Assembly (NCBI RefSeq): GCF_015689195.1
Contig: NZ_CP065044.1
Location: forward strand, 3,596,001-3,660,000
Direction of reading: 5' to 3'
Origin: Pectobacterium aroidearum
GTDB taxonomy: Bacteria; Pseudomonadota; Gammaproteobacteria; Enterobacterales; Enterobacteriaceae
DNA length: 64,000 bases
Shown piece by piece: positions 18,169-27,213 of this stretch. The translations under genes were made by a program, and so were the position numbers. Each line of letters opens with the position of its first letter. The stretch's first letter is position 1. The notes under the pieces were generated by a model. That model had not been told where the DNA came from. It worked only from the letters and a program-made list of their open reading frames with translations, and searched no databases.

Positions 18169-19068
18169 TCACGCGGCGGGAACAAAACTTTCCGCCCGCT
18201 CCAGAAGAAAATCATAAAACTCTTTCGCACATACGGAAAGCTGACGCTCCCTATCCGTCACCAGATAGATACCGCGCTGCAGCGATAAATCCCGAAACGG
18301 AATAATCGCAATGTCTTTGTGCTGAAACTGGAACAGCGTCAGCCCCGTCACAATACTCACACCATAATTTGCCGCCACCAGCCCCATCATGGTGGTCAAC
18401 TGACGCACTTCCAGCACGTAGTTAAAACCTTCCGGCTCGATAAGCTGATCGGTGTACTGCCGAATGCTGGTGCCTTTGCAAAACCCGACAAACGGGTATT
18501 GCGCCACATCGGCCACATCAACACTGTCGCGCTGCGCCAGCGGGTGCGAGTTCTGGCAGATCAGATAAAAACTGTCGGCAAACAGCATGTGAGAGCTGAA
18601 CGTTCCCGGCGACGGCTGCCCTGCTGTCAGCGCCAGATCGGCGCGCCCATCCAGCACCGCCTTCAGGCAGCGATCCCACTGCGTATCCAGCAGTTCAACC
18701 TTAATCTTGGGATAAGCACGGTGATATTGCGCCAGCACCTGAGGCAACCATTCCACCGCCATTGACGGCAATACCGCCAGCACAATCTTCCCCTTGTACC
18801 CCGTGGCATACGACTTGATCTCACCGACGGCATCATCATGGGTTTGCACCAGCCGACGGGCAATATCAATGAAATGAAGGCCATCGGCGTTGAGTTGCAC
18901 TTTACGTGTATCGCGATCAAATAGCCTATAGCCGACCTCTTCCTCCAACCCGGCGATTAATGAACTAAATGCTGGCTGAGAGAGATTTATTTTCTGAGCA
19001 GCGCGCGTGAAATTATCGGTTTCTGTCAACGCGATAAAGGCTCGTAATTGTTTTATCGATAAGTTCAT
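18169..19068 (-). CDS. LysR-family transcriptional regulator
   Basis: A 299-residue LysR-type regulator starting MNLSIKQLRAFIALTETDNFTRAAQKINLSQPAFSSLI, the standard winged helix-turn-helix (about 1-60). A linker helix and a periplasmic-binding-protein-like effector domain (about 90-295) follow. It is transcribed away from the CitMHS/AtuA operon across a 483-bp gap. This is the usual layout of a LysR activator that senses the pathway substrate. An in-frame upstream start at 19137 lacks family similarity. Confidence 0.9.
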   Translation of the reverse strand: MNLSIKQLRAFIALTETDNFTRAAQKINLSQPAFSSLIAGLEEEVGYRLFDRDTRKVQLNADGLHFIDIARRLVQTHDDAVGEIKSYATGYKGKIVLAVLPSMAVEWLPQVLAQYHRAYPKIKVELLDTQWDRCLKAVLDGRADLALTAGQPSPGTFSSHMLFADSFYLICQNSHPLAQRDSVDVADVAQYPFVGFCKGTSIRQYTDQLIEPEGFNYVLEVRQLTTMMGLVAANYGVSIVTGLTLFQFQHKDIAIIPFRDLSLQRGIYLVTDRERQLSVCAKEFYDFLLERAESFVPAA

Positions 19069-19551
19069 AGTGTTTTTATATAAATAAAATGAAGTCTCCG
19101 GTAAGAAAGGAACAAATTCAATAAAAAAAATCGGCAACTACCATTTTTATGATCCTTCCCGCATTTATTTAATTCCATTCAAACAACGTCCACTATTCAT
19201 AAAAATGGACATTCTCGATAAATATCACAAATTATAAAAAACAATTAAGTAAAAAGACTTAACTATGCAAACCAAATCAATCAATTAGCCATTAATAAGA
19301 AAATCAAAACGATTCATATCATTAACAAATAAAATAAACCCATCAGATTTACGAATAAAATCATTTCGATTACGAGTTAGTATAAAGAGGGTTGAGGGTG
19401 ATAAAAATAGTGCAGACAAAAAATCAAATGACTCTGGGGTAAGCACTCATTTGTTTTGTTAATTATGACAAGGATTGTTATTGAGTTGTTTAATTTATTG
19501 TAAATAAAACAAATAGGCAACATACAAATATATTATTAAAGAGGATCTTTT
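19069..19551. promoter_or_regulatory. Divergent control region between LysR gene and CitMHS operon
   Basis: A 483-bp, strongly AT-rich non-coding gap. It should contain LysR binding sites (T-N11-A type) and both promoters. No unique operator can be pinned down by eye. AGAGGATC just before 19552 is the CitMHS ribosome binding site. No gene seen. Confidence 0.45.
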
Positions 19552-20874
19552 ATGCTAGCTCTCATCGGGGTGCTAACCATAGCCACCCTGCTCTTTTTCA
19601 TCATGACCAAACGAATGTCGCCTCTGGTGGCGCTTATCGTGATACCCGTTCTTGGCGCGCTCGCGGCAGGCAGCGGCACCGATACCGCGAAATACGTGGT
19701 GGACGGCATCACCAAACTAGCCCCGATGGCGGCGATGTTTGTGTTTGCCATCGCCTTTTTCGGTGTCGTCACCGATGCAGGCATGTTTGATCCTATCATC
19801 AAAGGGATCTTACGCATGGTCGGCACCAGCCCGGTAAAAATCATTATCGGCACGGGCGTATTAGCACTGATCGCGCACCTGGACGGTAACGGTGCCGTCA
19901 CCTTCCTGATCACCATTCCTGCGATGCTGCCGCTGTTTAATAAGCTCGGCATGGACAAGCGCATTCTGGTCGGTATTACCGCGCTCAGTGCGGGTGTTAA
20001 CTTCCTGCCGTGGACCGGGCCGATGATCCGCGCCGCCGCCGCGTTAAACACCACCACACACGACCTGTTTATTCCGCTTATCCCAGCACAACTTTGCGGT
20101 CTGACCTTCATGGTGCTCATGGGCTATTACTGGGGCAAGAAAGAAGAGAAGCGTCTGGGATTAGCGTCGGGCAATCCGCTGGCTGGCAGCTCGCCGTCCA
20201 TTGCGGCCGAAGCGCATGTAAAAGAACTGACCGATGCGGAAAAAGTATTACGTCGTCCTAAGATGTTCTGGGTCAACATCGCGCTGGTGCTTGCCGTTAT
20301 CGGCACGATGGTGTTTACCAAAATTTCACCTACGGTCGCCTTCATGATCGCGCTGACGCTGGCACTGATGTTCAACTACCCCAACGTTGAAATGCAGAAA
20401 GAGCGCATTAATGCCCATGCCAAAGCGGCGCTGATGATGGCCAGCATCCTGTTTGCTGCGGGTGCGTTCACCGGCATCATGAGTGGCACCGGTATGCTGA
20501 AAGCCATGTCGCTCTCGGCGGTCAGCTTTGTGCCGGAATCTTTTGCCTCCCACATTCCATTTATCGTCGGTCTGATCTCCATGCCGTTGAGTCTGGTGTT
20601 TGACCCTGATTCGTACTACTTCGGCATCATGCCAGTCATTGCCCACACCGTGGACATGCTGGGTGTACCACCGATTCAGGTCGCGCAGGCTTCCGTATTA
20701 GGACAGATGACTACAGGCTTCCCGGTTAGTCCGCTGACGCCAGCCACCTTCCTACTGGTCAGTCTGGCGGGTGTCGATCTCGCCGATCACCAGAAGTTCT
20801 CTATCCCTGTGCTCTGGGCCGCCAGCGTCATCATGACGTTCGCCTGCGTCATCTTCGGGGTCTTCCCCTTATAG
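19552..20874 (+). CDS. CitMHS-family carboxylate:cation symporter
   Basis: A polytopic inner-membrane transporter of 440 residues with about 11-12 hydrophobic segments. The start MLALIGVLTIATLLFFIMTKRMSPLVALIVIPVLGAL and the internal DGNGAVTFLITIPAMLPL and FDPDSYYFGIMPV motifs are typical of CitMHS/citrate transporter proteins, which take up metal-citrate or related di- and tricarboxylates. It is the first gene of the operon. Since the downstream enzymes do not metabolise citrate, the substrate is probably another carboxylate; this is inference. Confidence 0.85.
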   Translation: MLALIGVLTIATLLFFIMTKRMSPLVALIVIPVLGALAAGSGTDTAKYVVDGITKLAPMAAMFVFAIAFFGVVTDAGMFDPIIKGILRMVGTSPVKIIIGTGVLALIAHLDGNGAVTFLITIPAMLPLFNKLGMDKRILVGITALSAGVNFLPWTGPMIRAAAALNTTTHDLFIPLIPAQLCGLTFMVLMGYYWGKKEEKRLGLASGNPLAGSSPSIAAEAHVKELTDAEKVLRRPKMFWVNIALVLAVIGTMVFTKISPTVAFMIALTLALMFNYPNVEMQKERINAHAKAALMMASILFAAGAFTGIMSGTGMLKAMSLSAVSFVPESFASHIPFIVGLISMPLSLVFDPDSYYFGIMPVIAHTVDMLGVPPIQVAQASVLGQMTTGFPVSPLTPATFLLVSLAGVDLADHQKFSIPVLWAASVIMTFACVIFGVFPL

Positions 20875-20935
20875 GGAACGTATGGTTCCCCATTGATTAC
20901 GCCAACAGACACATTTCATTGATAAAGGTAAGTTT

Positions 20936-22276
20936 ATGAAGACAATTCGTATTGGTTCCGGCGCTGGCTATGCTGGCGATCGCATCGAACCGGCCGTAGA
21001 ACTGGCTCAAAAAGGCGACATTCAGTATCTGGTATTTGAATGTCTGGCGGAACGCACTATCGCTATCGGCCAAAAGCAGAAGCAGCAGAACCCGGAAAAG
21101 GGCTACAACGAACTGCTGGCTGACCGCATGCACGCCGTGCTGCCGCTCTGTCTGGAAAAAGGCATCAAGATCATCACCAACATGGGCTCGGCTAACCCTG
21201 TCGCAGCCGGTCAGCGCGTATTGGAAATCGCCAAAGAGATTGGTGCAGACAAGCTGAAAATCGCCGTCGTGACTGGTGATGATGTGCACTCAGTGCTGAT
21301 TGCACAGGATTCCAAGCTGGATGAGATGGGTCAGCCGGTTTCACGCTGCGGCAAAGACATTATTTCCGCCAATGCCTATCTGGGCGCGGATGCGCTGGTA
21401 GAGGCTCTGCGTCAGGGTGCAGACGTGATTATTGCCGGACGCGTTTCCGACCCGTCGCTGTTCCTGTCCGCCATGATGTATGAATTCAACTGGGCAGCCG
21501 ATGACTGGGATCATCTGGGCAAAGGTACCTGCCTCGGTCACCTGTTGGAATGTGCAGGTCAAATCACTGGCGGCTACTACGCCGATCCTGGTGTTAAAGA
21601 CATCCCTCATCTTGATCGTTTGGGCTTCCCAATCGCGGAAATTAGCGAAGATGGCAGCGCCGTGATTACCAAAGTTGAAGGTTCCGGCGGCCGCGTCTGT
21701 GTGGATACCTGCAAAGAACAGCTGCTGTACGAAATCCACCGCCCGGATAGCTATATCACTCCAGACGTGATTGCCGATTTCAGCCACGTCACGTTTACCC
21801 AAGACGGTGAAAACCGCGTACGCGTACAGGGTGCAACCGGACACGCGAAAACCGATACGCTGAAAGTCTCCGTCGGCTATCAGGACGGGTTCATCGGCGA
21901 AGGCGAAATTTCTTACGCCGGTCCCGGTGCCGTCGCGCGCGGCCGTTTAGCGCTGGATATCGTCAAAGGGCGCTTTGCGGTGTGCCAGATCGATTTTCAG
22001 GAAGTACGCTATGACCTGATCGGTGTCGATGCCCTGCACGGTGCGCAACGGTCGCAAAGCAGCGAACCGTATGAAGTGCGCGCGCGCGTCGCAGCACGCT
22101 GCACCTCCAGAGCACAGGCGGTCAAAGTGGGTAACGAAGTTGAAACGCTCTATACCAACGGCCCGGCAGGCGGCGGCGGTGTTAACAAAGCGGTGAAAGA
22201 AATACTGGCGATGGATTCTACCCTGCTGTCTCGCGCCTGCGTCACACCAGCCGTTGATTATCTGGAGATTAAATAA
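20936..22276 (+). CDS. AtuA family protein (DUF1446)
   Basis: A 446-residue member of the acyclic terpene utilisation AtuA (DUF1446) family. It begins MKTIRIGSGAGYAGDRIEPAVELAQKGDIQYLVFECLAERT and carries IAGRVSDPSLFL, GKGTCLGHLLECAGQITGG and NGPAGGGGVNKAVKE. The biochemical activity of the family is not established as far as I know. It overlaps the next gene by 1 bp (TAATG). In many relatives the C-terminal small domain is fused; here it is a separate gene. Confidence 0.85.
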   Translation: MKTIRIGSGAGYAGDRIEPAVELAQKGDIQYLVFECLAERTIAIGQKQKQQNPEKGYNELLADRMHAVLPLCLEKGIKIITNMGSANPVAAGQRVLEIAKEIGADKLKIAVVTGDDVHSVLIAQDSKLDEMGQPVSRCGKDIISANAYLGADALVEALRQGADVIIAGRVSDPSLFLSAMMYEFNWAADDWDHLGKGTCLGHLLECAGQITGGYYADPGVKDIPHLDRLGFPIAEISEDGSAVITKVEGSGGRVCVDTCKEQLLYEIHRPDSYITPDVIADFSHVTFTQDGENRVRVQGATGHAKTDTLKVSVGYQDGFIGEGEISYAGPGAVARGRLALDIVKGRFAVCQIDFQEVRYDLIGVDALHGAQRSQSSEPYEVRARVAARCTSRAQAVKVGNEVETLYTNGPAGGGGVNKAVKEILAMDSTLLSRACVTPAVDYLEIK

Positions 22277-22575
22277 TGAAACTGCGTGAAATTGCTCATT
22301 CCCGTACCGGCGATAAAGGAAATACCTCCAATATTTCGCTGATTGCCTACCGGGCAGAAGACTATGACGTGCTGAAAGAGAAGATCACCGCCGAGAAAGT
22401 AAAGGCCTGGTTTGCCGATATCGTGACAGGTGATGTCGTTCGCTATGAGCTACCCGCGATCGGTGCCCTGAACTTCGTTATGTACGGTGCTCTGGGCGGT
22501 GGTGTTACACGTTCACTGGCGCTGGATATGCACGGCAAAGGATTAAGCTCGGCCATACTGGATATCGATATTTAA
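22276..22575 (+). CDS. AtuA-associated small protein (AtuA-like ferredoxin-fold domain)
   Basis: A 99-residue protein, MKLREIAHSRTGDKGNTSNISLIAY, with a glycine-rich GALGGGVTRSLALD. It corresponds to the C-terminal domain of longer AtuA proteins. The overlapping TAATG with the upstream gene implies coupled translation and probably a stoichiometric complex. Precise function unknown. Confidence 0.8.
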   Translation: MKLREIAHSRTGDKGNTSNISLIAYRAEDYDVLKEKITAEKVKAWFADIVTGDVVRYELPAIGALNFVMYGALGGGVTRSLALDMHGKGLSSAILDIDI

Positions 22576-22587
22576 TCCGATAACAGA

Positions 22588-22675
22588 GAGCAGGTGGCGG
22601 TTATTTACCCCCCTGCTCCCGCTAAATAACTGACATGTGCCGCAATAATTAACAGGTATTTATTTACCTGTGGGG
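22588..22675 (+). promoter_or_regulatory. Intra-operon hairpins between the AtuA and CoA-transferase modules
   Basis: GAGCAGG (22588-22594) pairs with CCTGCTC (22612-22618). Further on, ACAGGTA pairs with TACCTGT around 22650-22672. No U-run follows either stem. They may stabilise the upstream transcript or attenuate readthrough into the CoA-transferase genes. Confidence 0.45.
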
Positions 22676-22737
22676 ATTCGTGCGGCCATTTTTCAGAGTC
22701 ATCGCTTTAAGAGCCATCATTTAAGAGTAAATACGCA

Positions 22738-23394
22738 ATGAATAATAAAGTCATTGATGCCAGCCATTTCCGTTCTTATTTATTTGACGGAATGACAATT
22801 ATGTTCGGTGGTTTTATGGGCGTCGGAACACCGAAATTATTGGTAGATGAGATCATTAAATCCGGCGTCTCTGATTTAACCCTGATCGGAAATGATACCG
22901 GTTTTGTCGATACCGGCGTTGGACCGTTAATTGTCAGCGGTCAGGTAAAAAAACTGATTACCTCACATATTGGTACGAACCCGGAAACCGGACGCCGTAT
23001 GCTCGCTGGTGAACTGGACGTAGAGCTGGTGCCGCAAGGAACGCTGGCAGAGCGTATTCGCAGCGGCGGCGCAGGCTTAGGTGGCTTTCTGACGCCAACG
23101 GGCGTTGGCACCATTGTCGAAGAGAATAAACAAAAAATAACCATTAACGATATTACCTATTTATTAGAACTGCCCATTAAGGCCGATCTCGCCATATTAC
23201 AGGCCAGTATTGCCGACACCAGCGGAAACCTTATTTACCATCTCACCGCCCGTAATTTTAACCCGCTCATTGCGCTCGCCGCGAAGAAAGTCGTAGCGCA
23301 ATGCGAGCAGGTTATTCCGGTCGGTCAATTAGCACCGGAATGTATTGTCACCCCAGCGGCGCTGGTCGATCACCTTTATTTGGGAGAAAAATAA
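22738..23394 (+). CDS. 3-oxoacid CoA-transferase subunit A (AtoD-like)
   Basis: A 218-residue alpha subunit of a family I CoA-transferase, starting [32 protein letters not shown]. The CoA-binding GGFMGVGTP and the [16 protein letters not shown] block are conserved. With the next gene it would move CoA from an acyl-CoA donor to a carboxylic (probably 3-oxo) acid. The substrate is not known. It overlaps subunit B by 1 bp. Confidence 0.9.
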
Positions 23395-24041
23395 TGGATG
23401 CGAAAGAATTAATCGCCCGCCGCGTCGCACTGGAGCTGAAAAACGGCGACGTGGTGAATTTGGGTATTGGTTTGCCCACCAAAGTCGCGAATTACGTACC
23501 ACACGGCATTGAAGTCACCTTCCAGTCGGAGAACGGCTTTTTAGGGTTGGGGGCAATCACCGAACCGGACAGCAATCTGGTGAATGCCGGTGGTCAGGCA
23601 TGCGGCATGGTGCCTGGCGCAGCCATGTTCGACAGCGCGTTTTCCTTTGCGCTGATTCGCGGCGGCCATGTCGATGTCTGCGTGCTGGGCGGCTTGCAGG
23701 TGGACGAGCACGGTAGCCTCGCCAACTGGATGGTACCGGGGAAAATGGTGCCCGGCATGGGCGGCGCGATGGATCTGGTTGTCGGCGCGAAGAAGGTCAT
23801 CATCGCCCTGGATCACTGCGCCAAAAATGGCGATGCGAAACTATTGCACCAGTGCACCTACCCGCTAACCGCCGCCAATAAAGTCAGCATGGTCGTCACA
23901 GAACTGGCGGTCTTCCAGTTTATCGACCAACAAATGGTGCTGACCGAAATCAGCCCTGACATCACCGTGGACGAACTGCGCCAAAAAACCGAGGCGAACT
24001 TCATCGTGTCCGCCGATTTAAAACCCTTCAGCATCCATTAA
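23394..24041 (+). CDS. 3-oxoacid CoA-transferase subunit B (AtoA-like)
   Basis: A 215-residue beta subunit. The catalytic glutamate is Glu46 in the SENG motif ([11 protein letters not shown]), which forms the glutamyl-CoA intermediate. [23 protein letters not shown] is conserved. It starts at ATG 23394, overlapping the TAA of subunit A, so the subunits are coupled. The thiolase follows after 11 bp, which suggests that the acyl-CoA formed is a 3-ketoacyl-CoA. Confidence 0.92.
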
Positions 24042-24052
24042 TCGAGGCGACC

Positions 24053-25231
24053 ATGAACGACTCCGTTGTTATTGTTAATGCCAAGCGCACCGCAATCGGT
24101 AAATTCGCAGGCAGTCTGGCCAACACATCCGCTATCGAGATGGCGTCAGCCACCATTCGTGACTGTCTGTCGACGCTGCCGGACACGCTGGCGATCGATG
24201 AAGTGATTCTCGGCAATGTGCTGCAAGCTGGTCTGGGACAAAACCCGGCACATCAAGCGAGTCAGGCTGCCGGTCTCTCTTTTGAGACTCCCTCGCTGAC
24301 CGTCAGCAAAGTCTGTGGATCCGGCCTGAAGGCCGTCGTGCTCGGCGCACAGTCTATTCTGTCCGGCGATAATCAGGTCTGTGTAACGGGCGGGATGGAA
24401 AACATGAGCGCCGCGCCTTACCTGCTGGAAAAAGCGCGCCACGGTTACCGCATGGGGAATGGCAAGCTCGTTGATATCATGATTAACGATGGCCTGTGGT
24501 GTGCGTTTAACGATTACCACATGGGCACCACGGCGGAAAACATCGCCGAGCGCTACCAGCTTACGCGTGAAGAACAAGATCGGGTGGCGCTGGCGTCCCA
24601 GCAGAAAGCCGTCGCCGCGATTGAGGCTGGCCGCTTCAAGGCGGAAATTACTCCACTGTCACTGCGTAACAAGAAAGAGACGCGGATCTTCGATCGGGAC
24701 GAATTCCCTCGTGCGGATACCACGCTAGCGTCGCTGGCAGCGCTACGTCCGGCATTCTCCGCGAACGGCACCGTCACCGCAGGCAATGCGTCCGGCATTA
24801 ACGATGCGGCCGCGACGCTGGTGTTAATGCGTGAATCCGAAGCGAAAAAACAGGGGATTACCCCGCTAGCGCGTATCCGCAGTTGGGCATCAGCCGGTGT
24901 ACCGAGTGAGGTCATGGGACTGGGACCAATTCCCGCGACGCAGAAAGCGCTACTCAAAGCCGGGCTGACAATCGGCGATATCGACCTGATTGAAGCCAAC
25001 GAAGCCTTTGCCGCGCAGTTTCTAGCTGTACAGCGCGATCTCCAGCTCGATCCAGAAAAAGTGAACGTCAACGGCGGTGCGATTGCGCTGGGCCACCCTA
25101 TCGGGGCAAGCGGCGCGCGCATTCTTGTCACGTTGGTACACGCGCTGCACAGCTACAACAAAACGCTGGGGCTGGCGACGCTGTGCATCGGCGGTGGGCA
25201 AGGTATCGCGATGATCGTCGAGCGCATTTAA
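24053..25231 (+). CDS. Acetyl-CoA C-acyltransferase (thiolase)
   Basis: A 392-residue degradative thiolase with the acyl-accepting Cys88 (VSKVCGSG), His348 ([14 protein letters not shown]) and Cys378 (TLCIGGGQG). It would cleave a 3-ketoacyl-CoA, such as acetoacetyl-CoA, to acetyl-CoA and a shorter acyl-CoA. It closes the CitMHS-AtuA-CoA-transferase operon. The position after a CoA-transferase resembles ato operons, but atoE is replaced by CitMHS and AtuA is added. Confidence 0.93.
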
Positions 25232-25542: not shown

Positions 25543-27213
25543 CTAAAACGTTTCCCAGTTCGCATTTGCCGAGCCAGCAGATGCGGGTTTGGGCAACAGT
25601 GATGTCGGTAATGCAGCAAGATACAGCGCACTCTCGGCGCGATGTTCCTGTGCTGCCGATTGATTAATTTTGAACACCGCCACCGCGTTCTGTAAATATC
25701 TGGCCTGCTCTTCCAATGCCGCCGCGGCAGAAGCCGATTCCTCCACCAGCGAGGCGTTTTGCTGGGTGACGCGATCCATTTCATTGACCGCCTGCCCGAC
25801 CTGCTCGATCCCCCGGCTTTGCTCATCGGACGCCGACGCGATTTCCCCCATGATATCCGTTACCCGACTCACGGCGCTGACGATTTCTTTCATCGTATCG
25901 CCCGCGTCTTTTACCTGCACAGAGCCGGTATTGGTGCGGCTAACCGAATCATCAATCAGCGTTTTGATCTCTTTGGCGGCCTGAGCGCTGCGCTGCGCCA
26001 GCGTTCGCACCTCCCCTGCCACCACGGCAAAGCCTCGTCCTTGCTCACCAGCACGCGCGGCTTCTACCGCAGCATTCAGTGCCAGAATATTGGTCTGGAA
26101 AGCGATGCCATCAATCACGCTGGTAATGTGGGCGATTTTTTGTGAGCTGTCGGCGATCTCATTCATCGTTTTCACGACATTATCGACGACAGTGCCGCCT
26201 TTATTCGCCGTATCTGACGCATTTTTTGCCAGCTGCGTAGCCTGACGCGCATTGTCTGAGTTTTGTTTCACCGTCGATGTTAGCTGTTCCATGCTGGCGG
26301 CTGTTTCCTGTAGCGAGGCGGCCTGTTGCTCCGTACGCGAAGACAGATCGTTGCTGCCGACCGAGATTTCACTCGCCCCAGAGTGGATGGAGTGGGAACT
26401 GTCGCGCACCAAACTCACGGTGCGGATTAATGACTGCTGCATATGGTGCAGCCCTGCCGCGAGCTGGCTCATCTCATTGCGGCCTGTGGTATCAATCGGA
26501 TGCGTCAGATTACCCTCGGCGATAGCGCTAATATGCTGCATGAGCGTACGCAGCGGGTGCAAAAGAATACGCTGCAACCCGATCCAACTGAGGATAATCA
26601 CCAGCACGACGACGACGGACAGTGCGCCCAGCAACCACAGCATCGTTTCAAACGCCGCGTGGTTTTCCTTGAGGCCGTCATCCGACAGCTGGTTTTGCGC
26701 CGCACGCCACGTAATGTAGGCGTCCTGCATGGCCACGTTAAGCGGCGTTGCCCCACTACTCAACTTCATCGCCGCCCCCGCCAACCCGCCGGAAAGCGAA
26801 TCAACAATATCATTCAGTAGCTTGTCGTAAGCGGTATAGCTCGCCTCAAGTTTTTTGGATAACGCGTCATCCAATCCGGGTGTATTAGGCAAAGATAAAT
26901 AGTGTTTATAACTACTCTCGGAGGCAGCCAATTGCGTTTTTGCCTGCTGTAAGAGCGCCTGCATAGCTTCTTTATCCGCATTCCCCATCATCATGTTCTG
27001 TATAATAGAACCGATAGCGATGCGCGTCTGATTCATCATAATCCATGCATCGGTAAAGGCGGCCACATTCTGGTTAGAGCGTTGGGAAACAAGGAATCCC
27101 TCTCTGTCATTAATCAGTGCCCGAACGGATAGCGCACCGGTTAAGAATTGAGATATCCCCAAGACGAACAATAAGATAACAAGGATGGTAATGACTTTTA
27201 TGCGTTTAAACAT
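25543..27213 (-). CDS. Methyl-accepting chemotaxis protein (Tar/Tsr type)
   Basis: A 556-residue transmembrane chemoreceptor. TM1 lies at about 7-30 and TM2 at about 191-213. Between them is a four-helix-type periplasmic ligand domain of about 160 residues. A HAMP domain (about 214-270), methylation helices and the highly conserved signalling tip ([30 protein letters not shown]) follow. The C-terminus ends NWETF, the pentapeptide that tethers CheR and CheB, so it is a major, adaptation-competent receptor. The ligand cannot be inferred. A sigma-28-like promoter lies upstream. Confidence 0.95.

Follow-up and report, generated by a model that had tools for sequence, protein, structure and literature searches.

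Gene content and organization of the locus

The locus described here occupies positions 18169-25231 of a 64,000-nucleotide stretch of Pectobacterium aroidearum DNA (contig NZ_CP065044.1; this whole stretch is hereafter called the window) and holds an operon built around a protein of the AtuA (DUF1446) family. A LysR-type regulator gene (18169-19068, minus strand; ATG start, 299 amino acids; PF00126 and PF03466) stands divergent to a row of plus-strand genes. The first of these encodes a CitMHS symporter (19552-20874; PF03600), which reaches the score of the citrate:proton symporter subfamily TIGR00784 (417.3 bits, cut-off 259.7). It is followed by the large subunit AtuA (20936-22276), whose whole-length match to PF07287 lies above the gathering score (540.7 bits over residues 4-441, cut-off 22.8), and by a small AtuA_ferredoxin-like partner (22276-22575; PF23544, 130 bits, cut-off 27). 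The remaining genes encode an AtoD-like subunit A of a coenzyme A (CoA) transferase (22738-23394; 385.9 bits on PRK09920, the acetate CoA-transferase alpha/AtoD equivalog, cut-off 315), its AtoA-like subunit B (23394-24041; 307.9 bits on the pcaJ_scoB family model TIGR02428, cut-off 243.55) and an AtoB-like short-chain thiolase (24053-25231; PF00108/PF02803; 466.2 bits on TIGR01930, cut-off 240.55). All of these genes had been named in an initial annotation made from the DNA letters, and each is present with a family match, as are the residues it had pointed out, Glu46 of CoA-transferase subunit B and Cys88, His348 and Cys378 of the thiolase. Its description of tight junctions holds for the 1-bp TAATG overlaps at AtuA/partner and CoA-transferase A/B and for the gaps of 61 bp (CitMHS/AtuA) and 11 bp (CoA-transferase B/thiolase), and had passed over a gap of 162 bp between the partner and CoA-transferase A.

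The LysR protein is a probable activator of the operon. The region between its gene and CitMHS (19069-19551) contains two blocks that are conserved among 15 aligned intergenic regions from several genera. The block TTTTTATGATC-N5-CGCATTTATTTAA at 19144-19172 is a candidate LysR binding site and is well conserved, yet variable at some positions, while GAGTTAGTATAA...GATAAAAATA at 19374-19409 is a candidate activation site or promoter; together the blocks would fit a LysR recognition site and an activation site. A scan for sigma-70 consensus promoters and for terminators found no site within the second block and returned 2 promoter-like sites (6.9 in shuffles) and 8 terminator-like ones (8.9 in shuffles). 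The 162-nt gap (22576-22737) folds with -49.1 kcal/mol (z -3.68 against 200 shuffles) into two plus-strand hairpins at 22588-22693, the second followed by TTTTT. This structured gap is possibly an attenuator that separates the putative lyase genes (see below) from the ato-type genes, or an mRNA processing element.

Conservation and co-inheritance of the operon

For comparison, 59 loci were tabulated, each longer than 9 kb and with an AtuA of at least 45% identity, 24 of them from the same order as the window (Enterobacterales) and 35, largely chosen for high scores, from outside it; the table includes redundant relatives and two same-genome pairs (L030/L143 and L031/L144). The window AtuA is 97-98% identical to those of Pectobacterium sp. 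PL152, P. polonicum and Pectobacterium sp. CFBP8739. Loci from the order include representatives of Pectobacterium, Samsonia, Brenneria, Symbiopectobacterium, Prodigiosinella, Yersinia, Leminorella, Budvicia, Limnobaculum, Acerihabitans and Kosakonia, records labelled Serratia and Martelella, one metagenome-assembled genome and two loci from another family (L104 and L105). LysR is divergent from CitMHS in all 24, and the full set of LysR, CitMHS, AtuA, partner, CoA-transferase A/B and thiolase occurs in this sequence in 23, the exception being L105, which ends after the partner. The comparison of gene neighbourhoods proposed in the initial annotation thus finds the whole arrangement retained beyond chance. 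In two Symbiopectobacterium loci (L020 and L023), the AtuA and CitMHS matches are shortened and the neighbouring genes persist, which looks like operon decay.

Within Pectobacterium, AtuA was found in 15 of 25 genomes, and the operon thiolase (at least 96% identity) in exactly the same 15; the other ten have only thiolases of at most 44% identity. Because the two genes co-occur or are jointly missing in all 25 genomes, the operon is an inherited unit that is gained or lost as a whole. Among the sampled genomes of the order it is uncommon, with AtuA matches in 5 of 197, one of them weak (G036, 29% over 114 residues). Directly behind the operon lies a gene for a Tar-type chemoreceptor (25543-27213, minus strand), for which the best NCBIfam model is a citrate transducer (708.8 bits, below the cut-off of 900). 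It was considered as a component of the system and set aside: matches with E 1e-200 or better were found in 22 of the 25 Pectobacterium genomes, including seven of the ten that lack the operon, so that it is not tied to the operon.

The ato-type genes and the 3-oxoacid

The stretch encoding CoA-transferase A/B and thiolase is 67% identical at the DNA level, over 88% of its length, to E. coli atoD-atoA-atoB. Locus L104 carries an additional AtoE gene ahead of the thiolase (AtoE-type transporter, 723.6 bits) and reads CitMHS-AtuA-partner-atoD-atoA-atoE-atoB. The window operon itself is not an atoDAEB operon in the strict sense, having no AtoE; the AtoD cut-off is reached, and subunits A and B and the thiolase are homologous. 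The CoA-transferase pair are also the only PF01144 proteins above the cut-off in the genome, a third match lying below it. Since the last three genes form an atoDAB set, L104 retains the atoDAEB order and the genome holds no second such pair above the cut-off, the 3-oxoacid of the operon is most probably acetoacetate. The thiolase matches several short-chain thiolase models and, among the matches listed, reaches the cut-off of the general TIGR01930 only; a slightly longer 3-oxoacid may be compatible with it. The route proposed in the initial annotation, from an imported carboxylate through AtuA to a 3-oxoacid and on to acetyl-CoA by CoA-transferase and thiolase, is probable in light of the ato homology and the gene context.

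AtuA as a relative of citramalate lyase

The link between AtuA and a named reaction came from a divergent set of AtuA proteins, for which 22 loci were gathered. A DUF4387 gene lies just downstream in 21 of them. Against the Protein Data Bank (PDB), a profile of the 22 AtuA proteins matched 9erq_A, 'Citramalate lyase, subunit A (cmlA)' (E 8.3e-188), and the DUF4387 profile matched 9erq_B, 'subunit B (cmlB)' (E 5.3e-39). One divergent AtuA (L097; PF07287 70.3 bits, cut-off 22.8) matches 9erq_A across all 456 residues with 980 bits, and its locus is a cluster of glutamate mutase, methylaspartate ammonia-lyase and fumarase. An acetate-releasing lyase had been inferred from this kind of gene context before the structure search, which then returned 9erq_A. 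In profile-profile comparisons (hhalign), the window AtuA aligned with the citramalate-lyase clade over 306 columns (99.3%, E 3.9e-20), and the window small subunit with DUF4387 over 78 columns (91.9%, E 6.9e-7), a good but not overwhelming match; the comparison of small proteins covered 20 of 21, with L159 left out. According to these comparisons the window AtuA is a distant homologue of the citramalate-lyase clade, and its small subunit is probably homologous to the DUF4387 partner. A PDB search with the small-subunit profile gave no match.

Arg169, Asp172, Glu205, Cys206, Tyr265, Glu266, Pro270, Lys310 and Gly363 (window numbering) are invariant in all 69 AtuA sequences of an alignment hand-picked from four groups defined by identity (L088 and L106 were missed by the simple gene caller). 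The shared polar residues among these speak for one active site and one chemistry across the AtuA groups. All 26 sequences of the window group form a separate clade (support 0.88), with a median identity of 35% to six fused terpene-type sequences. The window pair is not CmlAB proper, as its partner belongs to PF23544 instead of DUF4387 and its AtuA falls outside the 9erq clade. It does fit an AtuA/Cml grouping of acetate-releasing lyases defined in this analysis by homology, a downstream partner and the shared residues, and we infer that the pair would release acetate from a tertiary hydroxy acid.

The initial annotation had instead suggested a dehydration or hydration step for AtuA. This proposal has in its favour only the general logic that a 3-oxoacid must be made, and separate hydratase genes lie near AtuA-family genes in three contexts: fumarase and aconitase-family genes beside divergent AtuA, and enoyl-CoA hydratase genes in a middle group (neighbour tallies from the first 25 families, simple gene caller). 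As the named homologues are lyases and hydratases are already at hand, AtuA more likely acts in C-C cleavage after hydration. We therefore set aside AtuA as a hydratase, a role that we consider very improbable. The accompanying remark that AtuA has no proven reaction is outdated for the family if the depositors' name is right, and stands for the window clade, for which we found no named reaction.

A DUF1446 gene of unknown function behind the ammonia-lyase has been noted in Enterobacteriaceae, where the fate of (S)-citramalate was called unclear (PMC4682846). In that study, E. coli ATCC 700728 grown on citrate, acetate or propionate yielded extracts in which citramalate lyase activity was not detected, and a condition under which this strain expresses the ammonia-lyase cluster was not found either (PMC4682846). 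With the PDB entry 9ERQ, AtuA-DUF4387 offers a candidate enzyme for this citramalate step in E. coli, including O157:H7. A distant nucleotide search of 5426 complete E. coli genomes found the ammonia-lyase-AtuA-DUF4387 stretch in 1084, with 1080 of the matches extending over 80% of its length; megablast with the L097 AtuA-DUF4387 stretch had returned no match in E. coli. In E. coli PT62 (L175, 3102767-3119689), AtuA-DUF4387 lies between methylaspartate ammonia-lyase and genes for a symporter and fumarase. A different row is found in L102 (5115-11348), where CitMHS, a D-2-hydroxyacid dehydrogenase, divergent AtuA, DUF4387 and both aconitase-family domains follow each other, probably as another citramalate-type pathway with its own hydratase; L091 (4088-9639) resembles it by eye.

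Elsewhere, two naphthalene-operon proteins are tabled as 'AtuA-like lyase', with no further detail (PMC12016498). LumX, a retro-aldolase giving acetoacetate and pyruvate, was considered as a link and dropped, the term 'AtuA' being absent from the main text of the paper (PMC12746152). Our literature search turned up no publication that deals with CmlAB, with AtuA beside CitMHS or with a CoA-free cleavage of 3-hydroxy-3-methylglutarate (HMG), which is weak evidence of absence, as most subscription papers and preprints lay outside its reach.

HMG as the proposed substrate

Citramalate (-OOC-C(OH)(CH3)-CH2COO-) loses acetate to leave pyruvate. Release of acetate from HMG leaves acetoacetate, and HMG is citrate with a methyl group replacing the central carboxylate. 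Because the same cut as on citramalate would yield the 3-oxoacid predicted from the ato-type genes, we posit that HMG is the substrate of the window pair. As the methyl analogue of citrate it would also be a natural cargo for a CitMHS-like carrier, and the position of CitMHS beside AtuA in 41 of the 59 loci suits a citrate-like acid. The window CitMHS is accordingly proposed as an HMG importer.

An independent connection comes from genes of HMG-CoA metabolism. Salinigranum marinum and Halalkalicoccus sp. FCH27 each carry, on a plasmid, an annotated degradative HMG-CoA reductase gene that shares 4 bp with the start of AtuA. The reductase of Salinigranum reaches TIGR00532 (430.7 bits, cut-off 259.95) and the gene after AtuA is the partner (PF23544, 101.7 bits); in Halalkalicoccus, the reductase is taken as annotated and the partner is identified by position only, as a hypothetical gene of fitting size after AtuA. 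A 156-amino-acid protein with no Pfam or NCBIfam match is encoded after this gene trio in Salinigranum (L171, 10690-11157), and a gene of similar length lies in the same place in Halalkalicoccus. The reductase loci were nine, opened out of 37 matching records, with the annotated 5 kb considered and plasmid annotation incomplete; among them HMG-CoA lyase is annotated directly downstream in Rhodococcus and nearby in Rhizobium. With AtuA beside the reductase in two haloarchaea and HMG-CoA lyase in Rhodococcus, AtuA can occupy a place that HMG-CoA lyase can also take.

In loci of the middle group, AtuA lies near genes for a carboxylase, an acyl-CoA dehydrogenase and an enoyl-CoA hydratase, a leucine- or terpene-like setting in which the hydratase would form HMG-CoA or a homologue. 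In the terpene pathway, acetate is released from 3-hydroxy-3-isohexenylglutaryl-CoA, and AtuA is listed for this step among proteins 'characterized or tentatively identified' (PMC4847356). Rv2498c, which is unrelated to AtuA, cleaves both (S)-citramalyl-CoA and (R)-HMG-CoA (PMC6689899), and is a precedent for one active site taking citramalate- and HMG-type substrates.

These contexts also raise the possibility that CoA comes first: the CoA-transferase would form HMG-CoA, from whose free arm AtuA and its partner would release acetate, leaving acetoacetyl-CoA for the thiolase. In favour of this, genes for enzymes acting on CoA thioesters (enoyl-CoA hydratase, carboxylase, acyl-CoA dehydrogenase) surround the Atu/Liu-like relatives, the Atu reaction is formulated as acetate release from a CoA ester (PMC4847356), and AtuA follows HMG-CoA reductase in the two haloarchaea. 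We regard this sequence of events as unlikely, given that 34 of the 35 loci outside the order have no such CoA-transferase near AtuA (it could lie elsewhere in the genome), that the name of the deposited homologue refers to free citramalate and that subunit A reaches the AtoD acetate CoA-transferase model.

A minimal AtuA-partner module outside the order

A transporter gene was recognised near AtuA and its partner in 28 of the 35 loci outside the order, namely CitMHS by homology in 17 and a tripartite tricarboxylate, TRAP or ABC transporter gene in 11, some of the latter with only 23-29% identity; in the other seven loci our queries recognised none. A frequent layout consists of a regulator, a transporter, AtuA and partner alone, and this minimal module was found in Proteobacteria, Firmicutes and Bacteroidota. 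Because many loci hold nothing more, AtuA and its partner seem to suffice for converting the imported acid into a product that the cell can use.

Additional genes follow the module in some genomes. In Azospirillum thermophilum (L034), CoA-transferase A/B lies downstream, and in two Firmicutes loci (L030 and L031) a gene of the acetoacetate decarboxylase family directly follows the partner (PF06314, 74.1 and 85.9 bits, cut-off 29.8). L088 has a weak thiolase match (36%). Esterase-like genes follow in L028 and L032 (Peptidase_S15/PepX_C) and, by homology, in L033; an Abhydrolase_10 gene comes after the module in Sphingomonas, and in Microvirga a binding-protein gene is followed by genes for a 3-hydroxybutyrate-oligomer hydrolase and a tannase. 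Such downstream genes would suit an acid that is encountered as an ester. The Firmicutes genomes with L030 and L031 (G542 and G543) carry two CitMHS-AtuA-partner modules each (L030 with L143, L031 with L144), one of which has the decarboxylase-family gene; the paired modules may serve different acids.

This distribution bears on the explanation that the initial annotation had named as its refutation, namely that the operon simply serves the use of acetoacetate (or citrate) and could do without AtuA. The atoDAB homology favours it. The window, however, lacks an atoE between subunit B and thiolase and has CitMHS ahead instead, AtuA and the operon thiolase are jointly present or absent throughout Pectobacterium, and the AtuA-partner pair is the conserved core in distant phyla, where ato-type genes are mostly absent: transporters stand beside it in 28 of the 35 outside loci and a clear acetoacetate gene in three. 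We give this explanation hardly any credence.

The same scarcity speaks for another tertiary hydroxy acid as substrate, i.e., citrate (giving oxaloacetate), citramalate (giving pyruvate) or a larger 3-hydroxy-3-alkylglutarate. In addition to the 32 of 35 outside loci in which no clear acetoacetate gene lies close by, CitMHS takes its name from citrate, the divergent AtuA clade is citramalate lyase, and the neighbouring chemoreceptor scores best, if below the cut-off, on the citrate transducer model. Citrate or citramalate would, however, have no need of an accompanying atoDAB set in the operon, L104 holds a complete atoDAEB, and the window AtuA group and the citramalate clade are separate, so that we think such an acid rather improbable for the window operon.

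Proposed pathway and its standing

Taken together, homology and gene context lead us to propose, with moderate confidence, that the operon encodes a catabolic pathway for free HMG with a CoA-free HMG lyase. LysR would sense the acid or a product of it and switch the operon on, and CitMHS would take up HMG. AtuA and its partner, by virtue of their homology to the deposited citramalate lyase and their gene context, would then cut the bond between the tertiary alcohol carbon and one CH2COO- arm, a CoA-independent split into acetate and acetoacetate. The AtoDA-type CoA-transferase would move CoA from acetyl-CoA onto acetoacetate, and the thiolase would split acetoacetyl-CoA into two acetyl-CoA; both steps are established chemistry of these families. 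For the cleavage itself, the most likely course is that the tertiary hydroxyl loses its proton and the C-C bond to one CH2COO- arm breaks, so that acetate departs and acetoacetate stays. The acetate carbanion could be stabilised by a divalent metal, as used by isocitrate lyase-type enzymes, or, more speculatively, the invariant Cys206, which neighbours the likewise invariant Glu205, could be acylated transiently, so that the enzyme would serve as its own citrate lyase.

Several observations weigh against this pathway, whose weaker step is the one from a lyase family to HMG. The proposal draws on homology and gene context. The citramalate activity of 9ERQ and 9EVF is the depositors' naming, and the window AtuA group has a median identity of only about 18% to the citramalate clade, so that the substrate and even the reaction could differ. 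A direct PDB search with the window AtuA gave nothing convincing, and the connection to 9erq was made via the divergent clade; a profile of 17 window-type sequences reached 9erq_A with only E 0.004, behind a partial match (0.00089) to 9qkx_A, a chain that carries no protein name. These 17 were taken from 28 AtuA proteins (the window and 27 loci), near-identical or redundant ones being left out, as were L020 and L023, in which the AtuA match is broken. A clear acetoacetate gene occurs in only 3 of the 35 loci outside the order (the L034 CoA-transferase and the decarboxylase family in L030 and L031), and on the NCBIfam model for acetoacetate decarboxylase, whose cut-off is 150, the latter two proteins reach 22.5 and 31.5 bits. 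Among the nine reductase loci, AtuA is present in two, HMG-CoA lyase is annotated nearby in two and neither in five. The Salinigranum AtuA is 36% identical to that of the window, and its substrate could be HMG-CoA. For the terpene pathway, a review moreover names LiuE and not AtuA as the lyase that releases acetate (PMC4097962).

In its widest form, the proposal is a widespread CoA-free HMG route with a two-subunit lyase that uses neither thioester nor acyl-carrier protein, and an AtuA superfamily consisting throughout of acetate-releasing lyases; this extension we put forward tentatively, with about as much reason for doubt as for belief. If true, the superfamily would act on HMG, citramalate and HMG-like CoA esters, all via one active site, and the invariant Glu-Cys pair would allow a covalent acyl-cysteine mechanism, a citrate lyase in miniature. 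AtuA/DUF1446 occurs in 93 of 397 sampled genomes of the window's phylum and, over the cut-off, in 98 of 398 in the phylum of a Flavonifractor genome, and database records still name these proteins after terpene use. A family function as acetate-releasing lyases would give many genes a testable role. The pathway also predicts free HMG as a bacterial carbon source; free HMG occurs in plant esters and in mammals.

Comparison with known systems

The AtuA family, a two-subunit relative with a deposited function, the classical ato genes and the tentative lyase label of the terpene AtuA are not new. New, as far as the literature was searched, is the proposed combination of HMG import with CoA-free cleavage by an AtuA-partner pair, for which ato genes are optional. 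The window pair resembles CmlA/CmlB (PDB 9ERQ and 9EVF) in its layout, with a large subunit of the same Pfam family followed by a partner of about 100 amino acids, the same invariant polar residues and, per the depositors' name, conversion of a tertiary hydroxy acid to acetate and a keto acid. It differs in sequence (about 18% identity), in the Pfam family of the small subunit and in the keto product, which is pyruvate for CmlA/CmlB and predicted to be acetoacetate for the window pair; CmlA/CmlB clusters hold glutamate mutase, ammonia-lyase and fumarase where the window operon has an importer and ato genes.

E. coli atoDAEB shares the succession of CoA-transferase A, B and thiolase, whereas the window operon has no atoE, carries CitMHS-AtuA-partner ahead and has LysR in place of AtoSC. 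The AtuA of the Pseudomonas atu cluster belongs to the same Pfam family and has the small domain, which is fused in the six fused-type proteins used here, and its presumed substrate is an HMG homologue with a longer side chain. That cluster, however, serves a CoA-ester pathway with carboxylase and dehydrogenases, its AtuA falls in a clade separate from the window (median 35% identity), and the AtuA role has also been ascribed to LiuE (PMC4097962). HMG-CoA lyase (mvaB/LiuE) and Rv2498c break the same type of bond in HMG-CoA and likewise give acetoacetate (PMC6689899), but they have no detected relation to AtuA, act on a CoA thioester and release acetyl-CoA instead of the acetate predicted for the window pair.

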